Notes under the pieces: generated by a model | What the model was told of the DNA's origin: nothing | Database searches by the model: none | The model's input: the letters and a program-made list of their open reading frames with translations, nothing else | Made by a program: the position numbers and the translations under genes | Shown here: one piece after another, positions 4,298-35,199 of the stretch | Numbering within the stretch: position 1 is the stretch's first letter | How the letters are laid out: the number at the start of each line of letters is the position of its first letter | Virus record (IMG/VR): IMGVR_UViG_3300032083_002429 | Span: 1 to 55,248 of that record | Reading direction: 5' to 3' (one strand) | Source of the DNA: a virus | Length of the DNA stretch: 55,248 nt

Positions 4298-5215
4298 ATG
4301 TCAAACAATAAATTTGAAAGTTTATTAGAATTACTGATAAACGAAGAAAATGATAAAGCAGAAGCTTTATTTCATGAAATCGTAGTAGAAAAATCTAGAG
4401 ATATCTACGAGAACCTAGCAGACGAGTCTGCAGAAGAATCAAAAGAAGATGCTAAAGTTGACGAAACTACCGAAGAAGCTAAATCAGACGAGCAGGTTGA
4501 TGAAGTGGTAGAAATCGAAGACGAAGCTACAGAATCAGAAACTACTGAAGAAGAATCAATTGAAGAAATGGGCGGCGACGCTACTGACGAATTGGTTAAA
4601 GACATCTCAGCAGATCAAGAAGGCGAGCACGATGCAATGGACAAACCAGAGATGGACATGGACAAAGATGCAGAAGGTGACGCAGAAGGTGATGTTGAAG
4701 ACAGAGTAGTTGACTTAGAAGATGCTTTAGACGAACTAAAAGCAGAATTCGAAGCAATGATGGGTGACAAAAAAGATGGCGAAGAAGACAAAGAAGACGA
4801 GTCTTTGGAAATGCCAGCTGTTGAAACTCAGCCAGAAATGTCATATGAAGGCAAGAAAGACATGATGGCCGGCAAGAAAATGGATAAAGAAAAAATGAAA
4901 GAGTACAAAAATCCAGTGAAAGCCGATCATGCAGATCATTCAGACAAAGCGGCAAAAGGTGCAACACCAGTTGTAGGCGGATCAAAAGTTAAAACAGGCG
5001 CAAGCGGTTCTAACATGACTCAAGCACAAGCGGACAGCGGTAGTGCAGGTGCATCGACTTCCATTAATGGATCGTCAACACCTCAGAAAATGGCTGGTGA
5101 GTTTGAAAACACAGGTGGAAAAGCTAGAGGTACTTCAATGAAATCTCCAGCTCCTAAGCCAGTTACAGCTGACGGATCAGAAAAATCTGCAAAATCACCA
5201 ATCTCAGGCAAGTAA
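4298..5215 (+). CDS. gp67: Prohead core protein (gp67-like, extended)
   Basis: The 305-residue product begins with a short helix (SLLELLINEENDKAEALFHE) followed by VEKSRDIYENLADE. This is the same layout as T4 gp67, a small acidic prohead core protein cleaved by gp21. A very acidic stretch follows at about residues 45-180, then a Lys/Gly/Ser-rich tail ending in SAKSPISGK. T4 gp67 is only 80 aa, so the tail is an extension of the kind seen in marine T4-like phages. It has a strong ribosome-binding site and lies just upstream of the protease, scaffold and capsid genes. The family assignment rests on the N-terminus, composition and position. Confidence 0.7.
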   Translation: MSNNKFESLLELLINEENDKAEALFHEIVVEKSRDIYENLADESAEESKEDAKVDETTEEAKSDEQVDEVVEIEDEATESETTEEESIEEMGGDATDELVKDISADQEGEHDAMDKPEMDMDKDAEGDAEGDVEDRVVDLEDALDELKAEFEAMMGDKKDGEEDKEDESLEMPAVETQPEMSYEGKKDMMAGKKMDKEKMKEYKNPVKADHADHSDKAAKGATPVVGGSKVKTGASGSNMTQAQADSGSAGASTSINGSSTPQKMAGEFENTGGKARGTSMKSPAPKPVTADGSEKSAKSPISGK

Positions 5216-5250: not shown

Positions 5251-5880
5251 ATGTCATCACTATATCTAAGAGAGAATCTAACTTTTAACGAAGCCAGATT
5301 ACAGATCTTACACGAGAACGAGGGTAAGGATTTGTACATGAAAGGTATCTGTATTCAAGGTGGGATTAAAAATGCTAATCAGAGAACGTACCCAGTGCAG
5401 GAGATTGCGAAAGCAACCAAAACACTGAACGATCAGATTACATCAGGATACTCTGTGTTAGGTGAAGTGGATCACCCGGATGATTTAAAGATTAATTTGG
5501 ACCGTGTGTCCCACATGATTACAGAGATGTGGATGGACGGACCAAATGGATACGGTAAGATGAAAATCTTACCAACACCAATGGGCCAACTTGTCAAAAC
5601 TATGTTGGAATCAGGTGTGAAACTAGGCGTATCAAGTAGAGGATCTGGAAACATGTCCGAGTACGGAAACGGCGAAGTTTCAGACTTCGAGATCATCACA
5701 GTAGATGTTGTAGCCCAACCTTCGGCACCAGGTGCTTACCCCACGCCAATTTACGAACACCTAATGAATACAAAAGGTGGTAACATGGCAAAAGGTTTGG
5801 CGGCAGAAGTTAGAAATGACCCAAAAGCACAGAAGTTCCTCAAAGAGGCGTTAACAAACATAATAAAGGACCTAAAATAA
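5251..5880 (+). CDS. gp21: Prohead core scaffold protease (gp21-like)
   Basis: The 209-residue product is a herpesvirus-type serine protease of the T4 gp21 family (T4: 212 aa). The catalytic His is visible as H75 in GEVDHP and the catalytic Ser as S128/S129 in GVSSRGSG; D152 lies in a following ITVDVV strand. The family cleaves core and capsid proteins after (L/I)-x-E once the prohead is complete, then digests itself. An AAGGAGG ribosome-binding site precedes the ATG. Its stop codon overlaps the gp22 start by 1 nt, indicating translational coupling. Confidence 0.93.
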   Translation: MSSLYLRENLTFNEARLQILHENEGKDLYMKGICIQGGIKNANQRTYPVQEIAKATKTLNDQITSGYSVLGEVDHPDDLKINLDRVSHMITEMWMDGPNGYGKMKILPTPMGQLVKTMLESGVKLGVSSRGSGNMSEYGNGEVSDFEIITVDVVAQPSAPGAYPTPIYEHLMNTKGGNMAKGLAAEVRNDPKAQKFLKEALTNIIKDLK

Positions 5881-6944
5881 TGATTGATGCAATATCAAAA
5901 TTGGTTGAGTCAGGAGCAATATCAGAAGATGTTCAAAAAAGTATCTCTGAAGCTTGGGATTCAAAAATCAAAGAAAACAAAGAACAAGTAGGTGCGGAAT
6001 TGAGAGAAGAATTCGCAAAAAGATATGAACACGACAAAGGGAACATGATCGAAGCCATCGACAAGATGATGGGCGAGAAGTTAAGCGAAGAGATCTCGAA
6101 GTTCGTTGAAGACAGAAAAGCACTTGCACAAGAAAAAATCGCCTACAAAGAAAACGTAGGCAAACATTCTGCTAAATTAGAATCATTTATGCTTTCTAAA
6201 CTGTCAGAAGAGTTGAAAGAACTACACGGCGACCGAAAAGGTGTCCACGAAAACTTCAAGAAGATGGAAGAATTCGTAGTAGGTGCTCTTGCAAAAGAAA
6301 TCAAAGAGTTCCACGAAGACAAAAAAGGCGTTGTGGAGACGAAAGTCAAACTAGTAGCCGAGGCCAAAAAACAAATGGCCAAGATGAAAGAGGCTTTCAT
6401 AACAAGATCTGCTAAGGTTGTAGAGTCTGCTGTAAACAAAAAACTTGCTGAAGAGCTATCTGCTCTTAAGGAAGACATCACAGCGGCAAGAACAGTGAAC
6501 TTTGGCAAGAAAATATTCGAAGCGTTTGCTTCAGAGTACCAGGCATCTTACTTAAATGAGAAATCTGAGACTTCGAAGATGATGAAAGTTGTGGATGAAA
6601 CTACACTTAAATTGAAAGACGCGGAGAAGGCTATCGAAGAGAAACAAGCGGTGATTGAATCGGCGTATGCTGAGTCCAAAAGACAGGCAGATTTGATGGA
6701 ACGTAAGGAAAAGATGGCTGAGATGCTCAATCCGTTGGGCAAAGAAAAGAGTGAAGTTATGAGTCAACTGTTGGAATCAGTTCAAACAGCGAAACTTGAA
6801 GCATCATTCAACAAGTATCTACCACATGTGATGGCTGACAAAGCAGTTAAAGGAGCTACGAAAGTACTTTCTGAGAGCGGCGGAGACAGAGCACCTAGGG
6901 AAGATGCTGACTTAACAAATATCCGTAAATTAGCGGGTATATAA
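5880..6944 (+). CDS. gp22: Major prohead scaffolding core protein (gp22-like)
   Basis: The 354 residues are almost entirely Lys/Glu-rich alpha helix, with predicted coiled coil from about 30 to 330, as expected for the T4 gp22 scaffold around which gp23 assembles. It follows the protease directly (1-nt overlap) and precedes the capsid gene, the conserved T4 order. The C-terminus LTNIRKLAGI carries a LxxLAG-type motif that recurs in other proteins of this window (33040-33072, 30471-30491). T4 gp22 is 269 aa, so this one is longer. In the family it is degraded by gp21 during maturation. Confidence 0.9.
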   Translation: MIDAISKLVESGAISEDVQKSISEAWDSKIKENKEQVGAELREEFAKRYEHDKGNMIEAIDKMMGEKLSEEISKFVEDRKALAQEKIAYKENVGKHSAKLESFMLSKLSEELKELHGDRKGVHENFKKMEEFVVGALAKEIKEFHEDKKGVVETKVKLVAEAKKQMAKMKEAFITRSAKVVESAVNKKLAEELSALKEDITAARTVNFGKKIFEAFASEYQASYLNEKSETSKMMKVVDETTLKLKDAEKAIEEKQAVIESAYAESKRQADLMERKEKMAEMLNPLGKEKSEVMSQLLESVQTAKLEASFNKYLPHVMADKAVKGATKVLSESGGDRAPREDADLTNIRKLAGI

Positions 6945-6970: not shown

Positions 6971-8143
6971 ATGTCAGATATATTTGAATCAAAATGGGGC
7001 GAAACTAAACAGGCCCTTACAGAAGGTTTAGCAGGCAACAAGAAAAAGACTATGGATGTTATCTTAGAAAACACTAAGAGATACCTTTCAGAGCAGTCTA
7101 CAGCAGGTGCGACATCTGCCGGTAACGTTGCTACGTTAAACAGAGTTATCCTACCAGTAATCAGAAGGGTTATGCCTACTGTTATTGCAAACGAAATCGT
7201 TGGTGTACAACCGATGACTGGTCCTGTAGGACAAATTCACACACTAAGAATAAGATATGCAGATACAGTTGCGTCAAACACGACAGCAGGTGAAGAAGCA
7301 CTATCTCCTTTCAAAATTGCGAAAGCATACTCTGGTAACCAGAACAACACAACTCCAAAAGCGGCTTCAACAGCTTCTTTAGAGGGAACACCTGGTAAAA
7401 GATTATCAATCCAGATCTTGAAACAACCGGTTGAAGCGAAGTCTAGAAAATTATCAGCTAGATGGACGTTTGAAGCGGCTCAAGATGCTCAAGCACAACA
7501 AGGTATCGATGTAGAAGCAGAAATCATGGCGGCATTAGCTCAAGAGATCACTGCAGAAATCGATCAAGAAGTAATTGGTTCATTAAGAACATTAGCTGGA
7601 ACGGCTTCTGAGACTTTTGACCAATCTGCTGTATCTGGTACGGCTACTTTCGTTGGTGATGAACACGCGGCATTGGCTGTTCTTATCAACAGAGTTGCAA
7701 ACCAAATCGCAACAAGAACAAGAAGAGGCGCTGGAAACTACGCAGTAGTATCTCCAACAGCTTTGACTGTTCTTCAATCAGCAACTACTTCAGCGTTCGC
7801 AAGATCGACTGAGGGAACTTTTGAAGCGCCTACAAATACTAAATTTGTTGGAACTTTAAACGGTGCTATGAGAGTGTACGTTGACGCTTACGCGGCAGAC
7901 GCCACTTCAGTACTTGTAGGTTACAAAGGAGCAAGTGAGGCAGACGCACCAGCGTTCTATTGTCCTTACATTCCTTTAATGTCTTCAGGTGTTGTGCTTG
8001 ATCCATCTACTTTCGAACCAGTAGTAGGCTTCTTAACAAGATATGGCTATGTAGAGTTAACAAACACTGCATCATCTCTTGGTAACGCGGCTGACTACGT
8101 TGGATTAGTAGCTGTAACATCAGCGAACTTAAAATTCAAATAA
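6971..8143 (+). CDS. gp23: Major capsid protein (gp23-like)
   Basis: This 390-residue HK97-fold capsid protein is shorter than T4 gp23 (521 aa), implying loss of insertion domains. The N-terminus contains RYLSE-Q at residues 37-42, which fits the gp21 cleavage rule (L/I)-x-E, so about 41 residues would be removed at maturation. Family-like segments include VGVQPMTGPVGQIHTLR and LSARWTFEAAQDAQAQQGIDV. An AAAGGAAG ribosome-binding site precedes the ATG and a strong terminator follows the stop codon, matching high late expression. It is the third of the coupled 21-22-23 set. Confidence 0.95.
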   Translation: MSDIFESKWGETKQALTEGLAGNKKKTMDVILENTKRYLSEQSTAGATSAGNVATLNRVILPVIRRVMPTVIANEIVGVQPMTGPVGQIHTLRIRYADTVASNTTAGEEALSPFKIAKAYSGNQNNTTPKAASTASLEGTPGKRLSIQILKQPVEAKSRKLSARWTFEAAQDAQAQQGIDVEAEIMAALAQEITAEIDQEVIGSLRTLAGTASETFDQSAVSGTATFVGDEHAALAVLINRVANQIATRTRRGAGNYAVVSPTALTVLQSATTSAFARSTEGTFEAPTNTKFVGTLNGAMRVYVDAYAADATSVLVGYKGASEADAPAFYCPYIPLMSSGVVLDPSTFEPVVGFLTRYGYVELTNTASSLGNAADYVGLVAVTSANLKFK

Positions 8144-18963: not shown

Positions 18964-20133
18964 TTAATTGTCAGCCTTAGGTTTGAGAGCATCTGTCAAT
19001 GATTGTCTCTGTGTTACTGTCAAACCATTTATCGTTGAACTTGTTGCATCGTTAACAAAACTTGTTTTGTAGTTTGCTCTCGAATTATTGTTAGTTGTAG
19101 TTATTCTAACGGAATCTTCTATTTTAACCCATCTGGTTCCGTCATAACGGAATAATCTGTTAGGTAAGTAATCTGTTCTCAAGAAATAATCACCAACGTC
19201 AACACCCGATGTTGGGAAAGATATTCCAAATCCGGCCGGGTGTCCGTTTGGTGCGACCCCATCGCCGTCCATGTAGAAGCCATAGTGCGAACTTGCCGGT
19301 GTGTCTATTGTAGCATTAACAGTTTTGTCACCACTTGCTCTTTGTTCTTCTGTGTTAACATTTTCTGTCCTAATATTTCCTCTCTCGTCTATGGGTGCAA
19401 CATAGTACTGCTTATAGTTGAATCCTGACTTGGGTGCATCTGCTTCTGCCTGTGCAACTACTTGATCGTTAATTGTTTTTTCTTTGTTGAATGTTGACAT
19501 GTAACTGGCAAGGGATCCTGTTGTGGTTGCATCACCTATGATGTCTTTGAACTCCTGTGAGTCTACCATGGTCTTCATCTTCAATCTCAACAGGTGTGGC
19601 CACCATGTTTGCGAAAATCCTTCCGCCGCCCTGTTAACATCCTCCACAACATAGTATCTTTTCAATGCGATCGGTATGCTCTCGTCCAACGAGTAGTCTT
19701 CTTTCATGTGCGGGAATTCTATGACATCACCTGCCATTGGTTTCCTGCCTAATCTTTCAACTATGTCGTTCAGGTGTACTGTTAAAAATAGTGTGTCGTT
19801 CTGTAAGAACATACCAAACTGTGAAAGGTTGAAATCTGCATCTTGCACATTGTAAATCCCCCTCACGATGTAAATATCATCTGCATATTTCCTGTCCCTG
19901 TTCTCTAGGAAAAGTAAATCCTGTATGGTTCTCTCGTTTAATGAGTCTCCGGAATACTGAGGATTTGTAGGACTTGCCTCTCCGTCCTTGTTTGTGTCTC
20001 CCTGATCGTAGGGGCCTATGTACTTGTGGAAATGTAGATCGGTTCCTCCAACAACGAACATCTCCTTGATGTTACGATCGAAGAACTTGTAGTCATTACC
20101 TTTTTCAGGCTTAAAAATGGACAATCTTGGCAT
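18964..20133 (-). CDS. gp14: Neck protein (gp14-like)
   Basis: The product has 389 residues. The N-terminal half matches T4 gp14: FFDRNIKEMFVVGGTDLHFH, FGMFLQNDTLFLTVHLND and KPMAGDVIEFPHMKED. gp14 forms part of the collar that closes the filled head and joins the tail. The C-terminal 130 residues are a family extension with a module VGDYFLRTDYLPNRLFRYDG and RWVKIED. The start at ATG 20133 (MPRLSIF) is preferred to 20142, because the latter lies inside the late-promoter box. It is divergent from gp13, with only 43 nt between the start codons. Confidence 0.88.
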   Translation of the reverse strand: MPRLSIFKPEKGNDYKFFDRNIKEMFVVGGTDLHFHKYIGPYDQGDTNKDGEASPTNPQYSGDSLNERTIQDLLFLENRDRKYADDIYIVRGIYNVQDADFNLSQFGMFLQNDTLFLTVHLNDIVERLGRKPMAGDVIEFPHMKEDYSLDESIPIALKRYYVVEDVNRAAEGFSQTWWPHLLRLKMKTMVDSQEFKDIIGDATTTGSLASYMSTFNKEKTINDQVVAQAEADAPKSGFNYKQYYVAPIDERGNIRTENVNTEEQRASGDKTVNATIDTPASSHYGFYMDGDGVAPNGHPAGFGISFPTSGVDVGDYFLRTDYLPNRLFRYDGTRWVKIEDSVRITTTNNNSRANYKTSFVNDATSSTINGLTVTQRQSLTDALKPKADN

Positions 20134-28596: not shown

Positions 28597-29133
28597 ATGA
28601 CAAAGAAATTAGAAGACATCCTTAATTTACCAAATGTCAAAGACGCATTCAAAGAGGTGGATAAAAAAGAGAAAGATCAGAAATTGAAGGAGACTGCCAA
28701 TGGTGGTACCACTGTTTCATCAAAAAATCTAGATCCAAAGACACAGGCGAACCTACAGAAAAGCTATGCGGAGTTTGACAAGATCGCGGCATCACTGCCA
28801 CAGGTGAAAGGCTTGGGTGATATGTCTGATCTGGAGATGGACAAGCTGGCCGTAGAAGCAGAAGAGAGCTATAAGAACCTAATGGACCTGGGCATGAACG
28901 TGGACTCGCGTTATTCAGGACGTATTTTCGAGGTTGCAAGTAACTTCCTAAAGAACGCCATAGATGCAAAGAGCTCCAAGATAGACAAGAAGCTCAAAAT
29001 GGTGGATCTACAACTCAAGAAGTTGAAGCTGGACAAAGACGGCAATAAAGACGGTTCTCCCATAGAAGAAAGCGATGGATTTGTAATATCTGACCGTAAT
29101 GAATTAATGAAGAAACTATTAAAGAAAGGCTAA
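28597..29133 (+). CDS. gp16: Small terminase subunit (gp16-like)
   Basis: The 178 residues (T4 gp16: 164) share a helical core with the family: MNVDSRYSGRIFEVASNFLK, then AIDAKSSKIDKKLKMVDLQL. The C-terminal segment FVISDRNELMKKLLKKG parallels the FMGSPTELMDEI-type end of T4 gp16. The small subunit regulates gp17 and recognises DNA during packaging initiation. In T4, gp16 and gp17 are adjacent; here two candidate internal-protein genes separate them. The assignment is by pattern and position, without a strong motif. Confidence 0.7.
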   Translation: MTKKLEDILNLPNVKDAFKEVDKKEKDQKLKETANGGTTVSSKNLDPKTQANLQKSYAEFDKIAASLPQVKGLGDMSDLEMDKLAVEAEESYKNLMDLGMNVDSRYSGRIFEVASNFLKNAIDAKSSKIDKKLKMVDLQLKKLKLDKDGNKDGSPIEESDGFVISDRNELMKKLLKKG

Positions 29134-29136
29134 ATA
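29129..29136 (+). promoter_or_regulatory. Late-promoter-like box GCTAAATA over the gp16 stop codon
   Basis: TAAATA includes the TAA stop of the gp16 gene. The box ends 6 nt before the ATG at 29143. Confidence 0.5.
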
Positions 29137-29142
29137 TTGCAT

Positions 29143-29793
29143 ATGAGTACATTCACACAGTATCTTACAGAAGCGGCCAAGTCATATGATTACAAAATCA
29201 AGGTGGCAGGCAATATTGATAAAGACTTCGCATCTAGAATGGAAACAGCATTAGCAAAATTTGAAGTGGCTAAGATGTCAGCGGGCAAGAAAACCCCTAT
29301 CATGACACTGCCGTTGGACTTCCCGATGTTATCAAATGAATCAGTTACAATTTACGATGTTACAACAAACTATCCAGCTTCATCAAATGTCATGAAGGAA
29401 TACCTTTCAGACATTTTAAGAGTTCCGGCAACACACATTGTTGTCAGGAAACCGGGTGAGCCCACAGAGGAATATCAAGACGCTATGCAGGTAGCGAAAA
29501 AATCAGACTTTGCAAATAAAGTAGCAGACGTTGAACAAAAATTCCAAGACAACGCACCAAATGGAAGAGGAAAAGCAGATGATTTATCTGGTGACAAGTA
29601 CAACATGAGTTTGATGAGAGAATTACTTAAAGACAAAGAAGACAGATACCATATTACAAAAGGCACTGACAACAAAGTTGGAAAGGTCATGCCAAGTGAA
29701 GATGATAAAAAAGCAGGTTCTCCAGTACACCCTGGACCAGGACCAGTAAAAGGAAATCCACACCCAGCAACACTACAAGGTTTCAAACAATAA
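29143..29793 (+). CDS. Candidate internal head protein with capsid-targeting-like N-terminus
   Basis: The product has 216 residues. The first eleven, MSTFTQYLTEA, follow the pattern of the T4 internal-protein capsid-targeting sequence (M-x-T-aromatic-x-x-aromatic/F-I/L-x-E, then A), in which gp21 cleaves after the Glu. The rest is a mixed alpha/beta protein with VAGNIDKDFASRMETALAKF and a Pro/Gly/His-rich C-terminus (PVHPGPGPVKGNPHPATLQG). The ATG at 29143 is chosen over an upstream TTG because of the late box. It lies between the two terminase genes. The function after injection or in the head is unknown. Confidence 0.65.
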   Translation: MSTFTQYLTEAAKSYDYKIKVAGNIDKDFASRMETALAKFEVAKMSAGKKTPIMTLPLDFPMLSNESVTIYDVTTNYPASSNVMKEYLSDILRVPATHIVVRKPGEPTEEYQDAMQVAKKSDFANKVADVEQKFQDNAPNGRGKADDLSGDKYNMSLMRELLKDKEDRYHITKGTDNKVGKVMPSEDDKKAGSPVHPGPGPVKGNPHPATLQGFKQ

Positions 29794-29804
29794 GGATATA
29801 AGTT

Positions 29805-30986
29805 ATGGAAATGATCGACGTATTAAAAAAATTAGAAGAAATTGCACAGACTAGACCAGAACTAGTTGCAGATGCGGTGGACAATGTTTCAAGAACTAAT
29901 CCTGCAGAAGTACAAGACAATGCAGTACAAACTGAAAGAGTTGGCGGAATGTCAGACGTACACATAGGTGCACAAGAAGTTGTAGGCGAATACGCGGACG
30001 AAGATGGCAACTTGAAAATGCCAAAACAAGACGTGTTAAGAGCGATGGCGGCTGAAAAAGAAAAAGCAAGTTTTCCTAGATCATACGAGATCGAAACTGC
30101 AATGGCGATGGTCAATGACAAATTTGGCAATGACGGCATAGCAAAAGACGACATGGACATGAGTTCAGAGCAACCAGCACAAGAGCCAGAAGCACTAGAA
30201 GGCAATGCATTTGCACAGGCAGTACAACAAGCCAAAGCGGCAGGCATGAAAAAAGGCGACAAGTTCAAAGTCGGTGACGAAGAACATACATTAAGAGACA
30301 GCGATTTTGAAGGGGAGAGCACAAGAGATATGACTACAGAAAAAACAGAAGGTAAAATACCAGCAGGCTTAAAAGCATACCAAGATAAAAAAGCAGGCAA
30401 AAAAGAAACTGTAAAAGAATCAATACAGATTTCAACAGATTCACCACAGGAAGCAGGCATGATGATGCAACTTCTAAAACTAGCAGGTTTACAAACAGTC
30501 GATCAAGCAATGATCAGCCAGGAACCCGAGCATGGTTCAGACATGGATCCAGGTGCGTTGAACAAGCAAATGGATGTTCCAGGTGATGATGCAATGGGCA
30601 GTATGCAGATGGCTAAAATGAGAGACATGATGACTGCACCAGCAGAAGAGAAAGCAGAAGAAACATTTGCGAATTCAATGGGTGACGAGAAAGAAGAACC
30701 AAAATATCAAGACACAGACACATTGGTAAACACTATGTCAGGTGGTATGAACAGACAAAAGAAAACTTATCCAAAAGTTGCTAGTGGAGATAATCCAATG
30801 GCGGCGGAAGACACAGTAACAGCTGAAAGTTTAGCAAACAGTTTGAGAGAACAGTACGAAACGTTCAAAGAAACTTACATAAAAGTTGCTGAAACAAAAG
30901 TGAAACCTGACTTCTTAGACATGGACAAAGATGGCAACAAGAAAGAACCAATGAAGAAAGCCATCAAAGACAAAGAAGCAAAGTAA
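29805..30986 (+). CDS. Acidic, probably internal or core-associated virion protein
   Basis: The 393 residues are rich in Glu, Lys, Met and Ala and poor in aromatic residues, like scaffold and core proteins. A central LxxLAG motif (MQLLKLAGLQTVDQ, at about residue 220-233) resembles motifs in gp22 and the 852-residue protein at 32641. The tail (DFLDMDKDGNKKEPMKKAIK) contains a Ca-loop-like D-x-D-x-D-G-N pattern. It follows the internal-protein candidate by 11 nt in the same transcript. The function is not known; a role in head assembly or as packaged protein is inferred from composition and context. Confidence 0.65.
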   Translation: MEMIDVLKKLEEIAQTRPELVADAVDNVSRTNPAEVQDNAVQTERVGGMSDVHIGAQEVVGEYADEDGNLKMPKQDVLRAMAAEKEKASFPRSYEIETAMAMVNDKFGNDGIAKDDMDMSSEQPAQEPEALEGNAFAQAVQQAKAAGMKKGDKFKVGDEEHTLRDSDFEGESTRDMTTEKTEGKIPAGLKAYQDKKAGKKETVKESIQISTDSPQEAGMMMQLLKLAGLQTVDQAMISQEPEHGSDMDPGALNKQMDVPGDDAMGSMQMAKMRDMMTAPAEEKAEETFANSMGDEKEEPKYQDTDTLVNTMSGGMNRQKKTYPKVASGDNPMAAEDTVTAESLANSLREQYETFKETYIKVAETKVKPDFLDMDKDGNKKEPMKKAIKDKEAK

Positions 30987-32640: not shown

Positions 32641-35199
32641 ATGAACCCAAAAAATTCGCAAGACCTATTCAATAAGATCAGATCACAGTTCTCAAACATC
32701 AGATTAGGTGACGAGAATGGTGCCGCAACAGCAGAGCCGGCCAGTGCTGTGTTCTTTGAATTTGAGTTCAAAGAGGACTCCGACACGTTTGGCTCTATTA
32801 GTGTATCCATAGCAGACGGTGAAACAATGAAAGTATTCTACAACAGGAATCTAGTGGACAAGATTGACGAGGACAGCAAGGGCGAGTGGTTTGCGTTCCT
32901 CAAGGAACTGAAAGACTTCGCAGTAGAACATCAATTGAGATTTGATGTGCGTGATATAACCAAATCGAACCTAACGAAGCAGGACTATGAAAATCTTGCA
33001 GATACGAATAAAACGGTAAATACTGATGAAATGTCAGAAGAACTAAACAGGATCACTAAACTAGCAGGTGTTGATAAGGCACCAGTAGCAGAAGGCTTAT
33101 CAGGCACTTCAAAAAGCTCATTCGAGAACCTAAACAAAACAAAATTAATAATCAGACACAAAGGCAAAGTTGACGAGACTGTGCCAGGTGCGAGATCAAG
33201 ACAGATACAATCACTGTACATAGAGAACGAAGACGGTGAGAGATTCAAATATCCACTGACTCATCTAGCAGGTGCGAGGGCCATGCAGAGACACGTGTCA
33301 AATGGCGGAAGACCACATGATGAATTCGGTGAACACATTGTTAGAACATCAGAAGACATAGCCAAACTGAATTCATTCTCGAGATATGCCTCTAACAAAG
33401 ATCAGTTGAACGACAACGCAGGTGACATCATTGAACAGACCAAATTGAAACTGGAGAACCTAAGAGGTTACATGAGGAACATATCAAAACAGGCACATTA
33501 CGAAGCGGCCGCGAAAGATTTCAAAACGGCAGAAGATCAAATACTGGACGACGAGACAGTGAACAAATTGAGAGAGAAGTTCACGATGAAAAACCTAGAC
33601 AGCAGGGTTGAAGACGCTTTTCCAATCATAAACAAAATAATGAGTGAATTCGAAGCAACCAAAGACCAAGAACAAGTGAACGAACTAGACTTAAAAGATT
33701 TAAAACCAAAAGCAAGTGACGTTATCACCTATGGCAAGGGTGGAAGTTTAAAACATATACAAATAGAATACGAAATACTTGGTACATTGGAAAATATGCT
33801 AATTGATAATTCAGAACAAGAAGTTCTAAAAAGAATTGCAGATTTTGTAACAGACGAAGTAGGTGAAGAGCATGTTGGCAAAGCAATGGAAATAATCCAA
33901 AAGGCAAAAGAAAATAAAGACGAGGAAATGACATTCGACGACATGATACAACAACTAAAAGGCAAAAAAGAGGATCAAGTGAACGAACTGGATCCAGGTG
34001 ATGAGCCGATCGACGCACCAATACAGGCACCAGTTGATCACGGTGCGGTGGTACAGAGTTTCTTGACTGATCCAGAAAACAAATTAGTACTAAGAAAAGA
34101 TGATTCAGCAGACAAGATGTTGAAAGTAACAAAATTCAAAGACAAGAACACAATGCTGGGATCAATACTTTCAGACATAGCAAGTAGATTGCTTACCAAA
34201 TCAGGTGAAGAAGACAGAGTGGCAAACTTCGCTTCTAGAGTAGCAGATGGAATAGAGCAAGAAGGTTCGAACTCATTCAAGCCAGGACCAGACTACAACA
34301 GCAACAAGAAAATCGCTGTGCAGTTGGCAAAGAGATACATCGACGACTACAAGAAGATGCAACAAGATCCAGCATACGCAGACGAAGTGAGGATGGATCC
34401 AGCAGATTTCAATCCCAAGAAAGACATCAAGGGAAAAGCGATAGGCAAAGAAACAGAAGCGTTTGAATCATGGGTTGACGAAACTGTGAACGAATACGCA
34501 ACAGCACCAAAGGATCCTGAATTAGAGAAAAAAGACAAAGAGAACGCTACAAAACTTGATGTGACGAAAGCGGACAAGATGATGAACACGACCGCATACA
34601 AAAAAATGAAGTCAGGTGATGACAGATACACAGACAAGACAGAAGGCATGGGTGGCGTGAATGAAAATCCAGAAACAGATTACGAGGGTTCAATGGACTA
34701 TGAACTGTCAGGTGATGACGGAGAGATGGCATACGGTACAATACACTACAAAGCAATCAACGGTGTGGTTGATCCAAACTCACTGCAAGGCAGTTATGAA
34801 TACGATGGCAACCATAAAATTGACAATGACATAGCAGATGAAATGATCAAGCCGGGTGGGGAAGAGCATGAAGAAGCACTCAAAGCCGCTCAAGAAGACT
34901 ATGATTACGAAGCAGGACGTATGAAATCAAAATTTGAGGGCAACCAACTGGAAGGCCTGACTTTCGAGGACATCAAGCCTTACGTTTCAATGTACAAGGA
35001 CAAGGATGGCAAGATAGTGAACGCCGTGCTAGACAAGGACGGTAAGGAAGTTTTCAAGACACATGACGGGAAAGCGGCAATGGCATACCTATCACAGAAC
35101 TACGACAAACTTAAAAGAGAAGACAGCGAAGTGCAAGACGAAGCTGAAGAGATCAACACAGAACTAGACAGAATCAAACACCTGGCTAACATCCAATAA
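32641..35199 (+). CDS. Large acidic protein with repeated linker motifs, likely virion-associated
   Basis: The product has 852 residues. A folded N-terminal domain (about 1-125, FFEFEFKEDSDTFGSISVSI) is followed by long charged helical stretches. Interspersed are LNRITKLAGV (residues 135-144), three linker-like VNE motifs (QVNELDLKD, QVNELDPGD and TVNEYATAP) and a C-terminus LDRIKHLANIQ. The LxxLA motifs resemble the scaffold C-terminus. The domain-linker pattern suggests a multidomain or proteolytically processed protein. It sits between gp17 and gp32 with its own late-type box. No enzyme motif is visible and the family is not recognised. Confidence 0.7.
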   Translation: MNPKNSQDLFNKIRSQFSNIRLGDENGAATAEPASAVFFEFEFKEDSDTFGSISVSIADGETMKVFYNRNLVDKIDEDSKGEWFAFLKELKDFAVEHQLRFDVRDITKSNLTKQDYENLADTNKTVNTDEMSEELNRITKLAGVDKAPVAEGLSGTSKSSFENLNKTKLIIRHKGKVDETVPGARSRQIQSLYIENEDGERFKYPLTHLAGARAMQRHVSNGGRPHDEFGEHIVRTSEDIAKLNSFSRYASNKDQLNDNAGDIIEQTKLKLENLRGYMRNISKQAHYEAAAKDFKTAEDQILDDETVNKLREKFTMKNLDSRVEDAFPIINKIMSEFEATKDQEQVNELDLKDLKPKASDVITYGKGGSLKHIQIEYEILGTLENMLIDNSEQEVLKRIADFVTDEVGEEHVGKAMEIIQKAKENKDEEMTFDDMIQQLKGKKEDQVNELDPGDEPIDAPIQAPVDHGAVVQSFLTDPENKLVLRKDDSADKMLKVTKFKDKNTMLGSILSDIASRLLTKSGEEDRVANFASRVADGIEQEGSNSFKPGPDYNSNKKIAVQLAKRYIDDYKKMQQDPAYADEVRMDPADFNPKKDIKGKAIGKETEAFESWVDETVNEYATAPKDPELEKKDKENATKLDVTKADKMMNTTAYKKMKSGDDRYTDKTEGMGGVNENPETDYEGSMDYELSGDDGEMAYGTIHYKAINGVVDPNSLQGSYEYDGNHKIDNDIADEMIKPGGEEHEEALKAAQEDYDYEAGRMKSKFEGNQLEGLTFEDIKPYVSMYKDKDGKIVNAVLDKDGKEVFKTHDGKAAMAYLSQNYDKLKREDSEVQDEAEEINTELDRIKHLANIQ

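Follow-up and report, generated by a model that had tools for sequence, protein, structure and literature searches.

The window analysed here is the entire 55,248-nt virus record IMGVR_UViG_3300032083_002429, so the layout of genes around the gene of interest is seen within these 55 kb. The gene content (gp20, gp21, gp23, gp18, gp17, etc.) is that of a T4-superfamily phage. Gene X, the subject of this analysis, encodes a protein with computed masses of 23.9 kDa for the precursor and 22.7 kDa if cut after Glu10. A preliminary description had placed X between gp16 and gp17; X does directly follow the gp16-like gene, while a further gene, Y, separates it from gp17. The features are collected in Table 1.

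Table 1. Features of the window that bear on gene X (CTS, capsid-targeting sequence; a single number is the only position given)
Feature	Position	Strand	Remarks
Portal gp20	133		
Head maturation protease gp21, which is predicted to cut X	5251..5880	+	phrog_207, E 4e-58
gp22-like scaffold, predicted core for docking of X	5880..6944	+	before gp23; coiled composition; phrog_10922 (family of unknown function), E 3.5e-81
gp23 major head protein	6971..8143	+	phrog_138, E 2e-101
Sheath gp18	22224		tube proteins also encoded in the window
gp4	28148		
gp16-like small terminase candidate	28597..29133	+	directly 5' of X; phrog_445 (terminase small subunit), E 1.9e-4; phrog_16202, E 1.4e-14
TAAATA, late-promoter-like element	29131..29136	+	12 nt before the ATG of X; kept 5' of X in relatives, including those with a shifted gp16 stop
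X, internal head protein candidate	29143..29793	+	ORF, ATG at 29143, 216 aa; phrog_14802 match
CTS of X, codons 1-10 (MSTFTQYLTE)	29143..29172	+	predicted cut Glu10/Ala11; conservation, specificity, T4 matrix test, helix at 4-10 in the AlphaFold2 model
Predicted ferredoxin-like domain of X, residues 14-108	29182..29466	+	beta-alpha-beta-beta-alpha-beta; AlphaFold2 block with pLDDT 62-87; generic matches
C-terminal part of X, residues 109-216	29467..29790	+	low confidence, largely flexible in the AlphaFold2 model
Y, candidate virion protein; lies between X and gp17	29805..30986	+	position matches that of PA5oct gp281 (ESI-MS/MS)
gp17	31026		
Z, large protein	32641		
gp32	35331		
UvsX	36488		

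For the start of X we prefer the ATG over a TTG at 29137 (MHMSTF...), which has a better Shine-Dalgarno spacing and is kept in 80 of 80 members of the close clade, but is absent from other relatives; its use would add two residues to the N-terminal signal and alter nothing else. The element TAAATA is found 11-13 nt before the ATGs of gp16, X, gp17 and Z. Most other genes of the window differ from these four, which have no clear Shine-Dalgarno sequence at the usual distance. If the elements acted as T4-late-type promoters, transcripts would start at or next to the ATG and would be leaderless. Elsewhere in the window, the ORF at 2116-2736, situated between the portal gene and the protease gene, matches an alpha-2,3-sialyltransferase family weakly (phrog_4603, E 5.6e-5) and a family of unknown function more strongly (phrog_30607, E 7.7e-31).

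X belongs to family phrog_14802, annotated as 'virion structural protein' in the head-and-packaging category (E 1.9e-8, positions 1-156 of a 179-position profile), with homology over most of the profile and the gene order kept; the earlier statement that the body of the protein matches no family has to be withdrawn. Members of this family (121Q gp557, GAP32 gp204, CBB_210 and PA5oct gp282) are homologous to X over most of its length and have a like neighbourhood, though their records carry no capsid-targeting annotation and several lack either the Glu of the signal or a small residue after it. Homologues were found by tblastn in jumbo myoviruses, namely GAP32, 121Q/PBECO4, BF, CBB, RaK2/K64-1 and their Salmonella and Klebsiella relatives, PA5oct/MIJ3, Atu_ph07, Phosso and Vibrio phage 2.275.O. 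The order gp4, gp16-like gene, X and virion protein (Y) is conserved in most of the records with homologues; in rhizobial records other genes are inserted before X. The group is abundant in IMG/VR, where three queries yielded 227, 183 and 144 confirmed stretches; the Phosso homologue as query gave one locus, and the Vibrio 2.275.O and PA5oct homologues gave none. All four contigs longer than 100 kb that were scanned contain X.

Beyond this family, searches with X were negative: the body had no Pfam match at E 1, the profiles matched no PDB sequence at E 5, and the profile found nothing at E 1 in T4, S-PM2, P-SSM2, HTVC008M, KVP40, phiM12 and Cr30, a set that holds no positive control. Against T4 head proteins the X HMM gave low-complexity scores, none of them significant. 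An alignment across the jumbo homologues was tried as a search model and dropped as too diverse.

The preliminary description had compared MSTFTQYLTE-A at the N-terminus of X with the signal of the T4 internal proteins (IPs), and the T4 record does give MKTYQEFIAEA for IPIII, as stated there, and for IPII as well. The pattern [LI]xE[AGS] with Glu at residue 10 occurs in 0.13% of shuffled X sequences (0.9% with Glu anywhere at 8-16). Among 64 distinct close homologues the residues M1, S2, T3, F4, L8 and E10 are invariant, residue 7 is Tyr in 63, residue 9 is Thr, Ala or Ser, and residue 11 is only Ser or Ala; none of the 64 has an [LI]xE[AGS] site beyond residue 12, so that the site at residue 10 is the sole one. 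In the wider family Glu stands at P1 in 191 of 195 distinct homologues (one fragment row set aside), and where Glu is kept the P1' residue is Ser (138), Ala (26), Asn (22), Gly (2), Leu (2) or Lys (1). The CTS pattern was present in 239 of 255 X frames and in 0 of 3,250 other frames of at least 100 aa from the same loci. Freshwater-type (lake) relatives begin with MKTFKEYLAE|S or MKTFKEYLTE|S/N, very close to IPII and IPIII and to the MKTFKEF of IPI. X thus carries the N-terminal signal of about ten residues that marks CTS-bearing internal head proteins, and the signal ends in a gp21-type site (L/I-x-E and a small residue), as in gp23 of this phage, though not in every relative.

A weight matrix was built from 82 unique X 11-mers only and used to scan all T4 ATG starts of at least 50 codons (1,319). 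IPIII and IPII ranked second and third (10.3 bits) and IPI fifth (5.0 bits), with rank 6 scoring 0.8. The top match (138185, minus strand, 76 aa) is no known IP and was taken as noise. Rank 4 is a 54-aa frame at 19130 of T4 NC_000866 (minus strand) that begins with MKTFKEFIKED and whose score falls among those of the known internal proteins. In the window X came first with 25.9 bits, the next frame scoring 3.5; it was also on top in four long relatives (26.5-30.6 vs at most 6.9) and in PA5oct (14.0 vs 1.9). The matrix includes the X sequences of these phages or of close relatives, and the informative part of these scores is the gap to everything else. With phrog_2667 ('internal head protein'), an independent profile, eight related genomes matched at the N-terminus of X (E 1e-5 to 6e-4), and in T4 the matches were ipIII and ipII (E 0.001-0.002); under a permissive threshold of 0.1, two large bacterial control genomes matched as well. 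When further CTS proteins were sought in related genomes, matches outside X either were about as frequent as in the controls or lay within Y; each of the long relatives scanned has a single CTS protein, in a conserved position.

Other head proteins of the phage carry sites of the same type. In gp23 cuts are predicted after Glu18 (LTE|G) and Glu41 (YLSE|Q); both L/I-x-E sites are present in 87 of 87 gp23 homologues, with Ser, Thr, Gln, Ala or Asn after the second, which sits where T4 gp23 has FLTE65|A. The gp22-like scaffold has ten [LIVFM]xE[AGS] sites, and in the stricter [LI] form 4-7 sites against about 1.4 expected. The single site of X, at residue 10, would be the pattern of a protein that is trimmed once and then retained, since with one site the body of X would survive the protease. 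The P1 Glu is missing from X of PA5oct (YYDAS), Phosso (YLSSV), BF (FLIDL) and XaC1 (ILTAL); in GAP32 and 121Q the Glu is followed by Leu or Lys, with LRE|S or LTE|S retained in their gp23. Loss of the Glu in some relatives indicates that cleavage is not required everywhere, and PA5oct gp282 is found in the virion although it has no cleavage site. The N-terminal helix outlives the cut, and targeting looks, from these alignments, more general than cleavage.

PA5oct has two further proteins of note. In NC_071039 a 73-aa virion protein (gp333, 82921-83142; ESI-MS/MS) adjoins the portal gene and has a CTS-like N-terminus, MKINDIITE|G, reminiscent of T4 gp24 (MAKINELLRE|S). The same genome encodes, besides the gp21 homologue gp331, a second annotated head maturation protease that was detected in the virion (gp212, 180349-181020).

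Homologues of X are constituents of virions. For CBB_210, at the position of X, 13 unique peptides covering 60.5% of the protein were identified in CBB particles (PMC5259590, Table 4), and the record of PA5oct gp282 carries an ESI-MS/MS note. In phAPEC6 the virion protein gp270c (16.20 kDa, 41.1% coverage; PMC7247149, Table 1) is probably the X homologue, judging from gene order and mass. The 121Q homologue read from Met38 has a mass of 16.204 kDa; given this fit, the phAPEC6 gene was probably annotated from an internal, downstream Met, and its signal missed. These data come from homologues in other phages, and 'virion' in them does not separate the head interior from the tail or surface.

The AlphaFold2 model of X (30 sequences, mean pLDDT 63, pTM 0.41) has a helix at residues 4-10, within the signal. 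A fold search gave no clear relative (best PDB match E 1.7e-3 with a poor TM score), and VIA-align gave Z of at most 8.2 to common ferredoxin-like folds. These matches may reflect merely a common arrangement, and none of them points to an active site, partner or function. In BFVD the clear matches to the model are unnamed phage proteins; T-even Ip7 (E 1.5e-3, TM 0.24) was too weak a match to be used.

A second motif recurs within the window. A hydrophobic sequence of the approximate form [L/M]xx[I/L]x[K/R]LAG[I/L/V] is found at the C-terminus of gp22 (6897-6941), in Y (30447-30491) and twice in Z (33028-33072 and 35149-35193). The gp22-like protein ends in DLTNIRKLAGI, and in the gp22 homologues listed the motif is C-terminal or nearly so, reading LSG in the GAP32/121Q type; it also ends Z or Y in several long relatives. 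Its counts in long relatives, compared with shuffled sequences, were 6 vs 0.45, 4 vs 1.25, 3 vs 0.75, 2 vs 0.55 and 5 vs 0.75. Core proteins could use the motif as a tag for binding to the scaffold or capsid, distinct from the CTS of X.

The specificity of the signal, the recovery of the T4 IPs, the site motif in gp23 and gp22 and the presence of homologues in virions all support the earlier proposal of an internal head protein with a T4-type CTS and a gp21-type site after Glu10. Very probably X is delivered into the prohead by this signal, trimmed by gp21 in this clade and kept as an internal head protein. Internal head proteins with a CTS are, as a kind, already known. X resembles T4 IPII and IPIII (MKTYQEFIAE|A) and IPI (MKTFKEF...ITE|A) in its ten-residue N-terminal signal with Glu and then a small residue, and its homologues are retained in virions. 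The body of X is unrelated by sequence to these proteins: the mature part showed no relation to IPI, IPII or IPIII, either with the X HMM on T4 proteins or with the X profile on the T4 genome. The T4 IPs are non-essential, several per genome, variable between relatives and inhibit individual GmrSD enzymes (PMC9958956, PMC12373910); they are apparently non-homologous to each other (PMC12373910). In contrast, X is one conserved gene in the head cluster; its family has a lower pI, lacks the cleavage Glu in some lineages and has no known anti-restriction activity. Another parallel is seen in the head proteins of phiKZ and SPN3US, whose propeptides are cut at A/S-x-E (PMC5694885, PMC10052503). There too a gp21-type protease trims after Glu, as predicted for X, whereas most of the propeptides are far longer, Ala or Ser stands at P3 and the set of proteins differs.

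The reading that we consider likely makes X an internal head protein, encoded by a jumbo relative of T4 of the Rak2/PA5oct type, that is docked by its CTS, cut by gp21 and retained with the DNA and has a general job in the head. What we infer for this phage, namely docking on the core, cleavage, a place inside the head, ejection and the mature function, would run as follows. The first ten or so residues would form a short helix. Like the CTS of T4 IPII and IPIII, this helix would dock X onto the core of the prohead, which comprises gp22, gp21 and further core proteins. After closure of the shell gp21 would cut behind Glu10, and the peptide would leave. The mature protein of 206 residues, predicted to consist of a ferredoxin-like domain and a flexible tail, would stay with the packaged DNA. 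Its job in the filled head would be a general one: as a constituent of the inner head, in the organisation of DNA, or as a co-ejected factor useful in any host. The heads of phAPEC6 and 121Q contain a rod-like inner body (PMC7247149), and one may speculate that X is a component of such a body.

The preliminary description had suggested an anti-defence role, which the present data do not support. X would then be packaged by its CTS, cut, ejected with the DNA and would block a host nuclease or the like, as T4 IPI, IPII and IPIII do; the signal is common to X and the T4 IPs, which inhibit GmrSD enzymes (PMC12373910). The rate of evolution can be read in the same sense. In the nearest long genome X is 56% identical, compared with 95% for gp23, 82% for gp4 and 80% for gp16, and such divergence, faster than that of neighbouring structural proteins, would also fit an arms-race gene and speaks against the reading we prefer. 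In the same comparison the divergence of X is much like that of a core protein at 4298 (46%) and of Y (63%), and X is under purifying selection, with a median dN/dS of about 0.12 (approximate, dS being near 1). Against counter-defence stand the single CTS protein per genome, fixed in place among the head genes, where T4 has several dispensable IPs that differ between relatives, and a median pI of the mature X family of 5.7 vs 9.0-9.7 for the T4 IPs, though X of the window itself has 8.5; no link was found between X and any defence. We regard injected counter-defence as improbable. Since X is a single gene that the lineage keeps in a constant position among its head genes, a general job is the most likely, rather than inhibition of one defence, and a general inner-head or co-ejected function is favoured with moderate confidence.

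A role for X as a core assembly factor in the manner of T4 gp67 or gp68, needed for the prohead, with the N-terminal helix as a core anchor and ejection incidental, is quite unlikely. Its lineage-wide presence, its synteny with gp4, gp16 and gp17, a rate like that of other core candidates and the helix retained where Glu is lost would all suit such a factor. Core proteins of the gp22/gp67/gp68 type, however, have many sites and are destroyed at maturation, gp67 and gp68 being cut to small pieces and lost, whereas X has a single site and homologues present in mature virions at high coverage; nor has X any sequence relation to gp67 or gp68. We see very little room for X as a neck, tail or packaging accessory protein in which the helix and Glu10 are coincidental and unrelated to capsid targeting. 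X does adjoin tube, neck and terminase genes, and its homologues are annotated merely as structural, but chance resemblance is at odds with the specificity of the pattern, with the recovery of the T4 IPs and with the invariant Glu and small P1' residue in the 64 close homologues.

The literature covered describes the T4-type CTS for T4 and, by analogy, discusses it for giants of the phiKZ type. Among titles and abstracts on 'capsid targeting sequence' we found no report of a CTS in the Rak2/PA5oct/121Q group, and in combination with 'jumbo phage' only the SPN3US papers; most subscription papers lie outside such a search, and this is weak evidence. A bolder and rather doubtful extension is that X is the lineage's one universal CTS-delivered protein, injected with the genome for a general, host-independent task (to protect, condense or handle the incoming DNA), and that the internal-protein route of T4 was originally a core head function, of which the anti-restriction IPs are a specialised offshoot. 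Should the preferred reading hold, a conserved protein of a widespread giant-phage group would be assigned a place in the head and a way of getting there. This would also yield a candidate tag with which cargo could be loaded into very large heads, and a handle on whether the strategy of injecting proteins began as a core head function and not as counter-defence.
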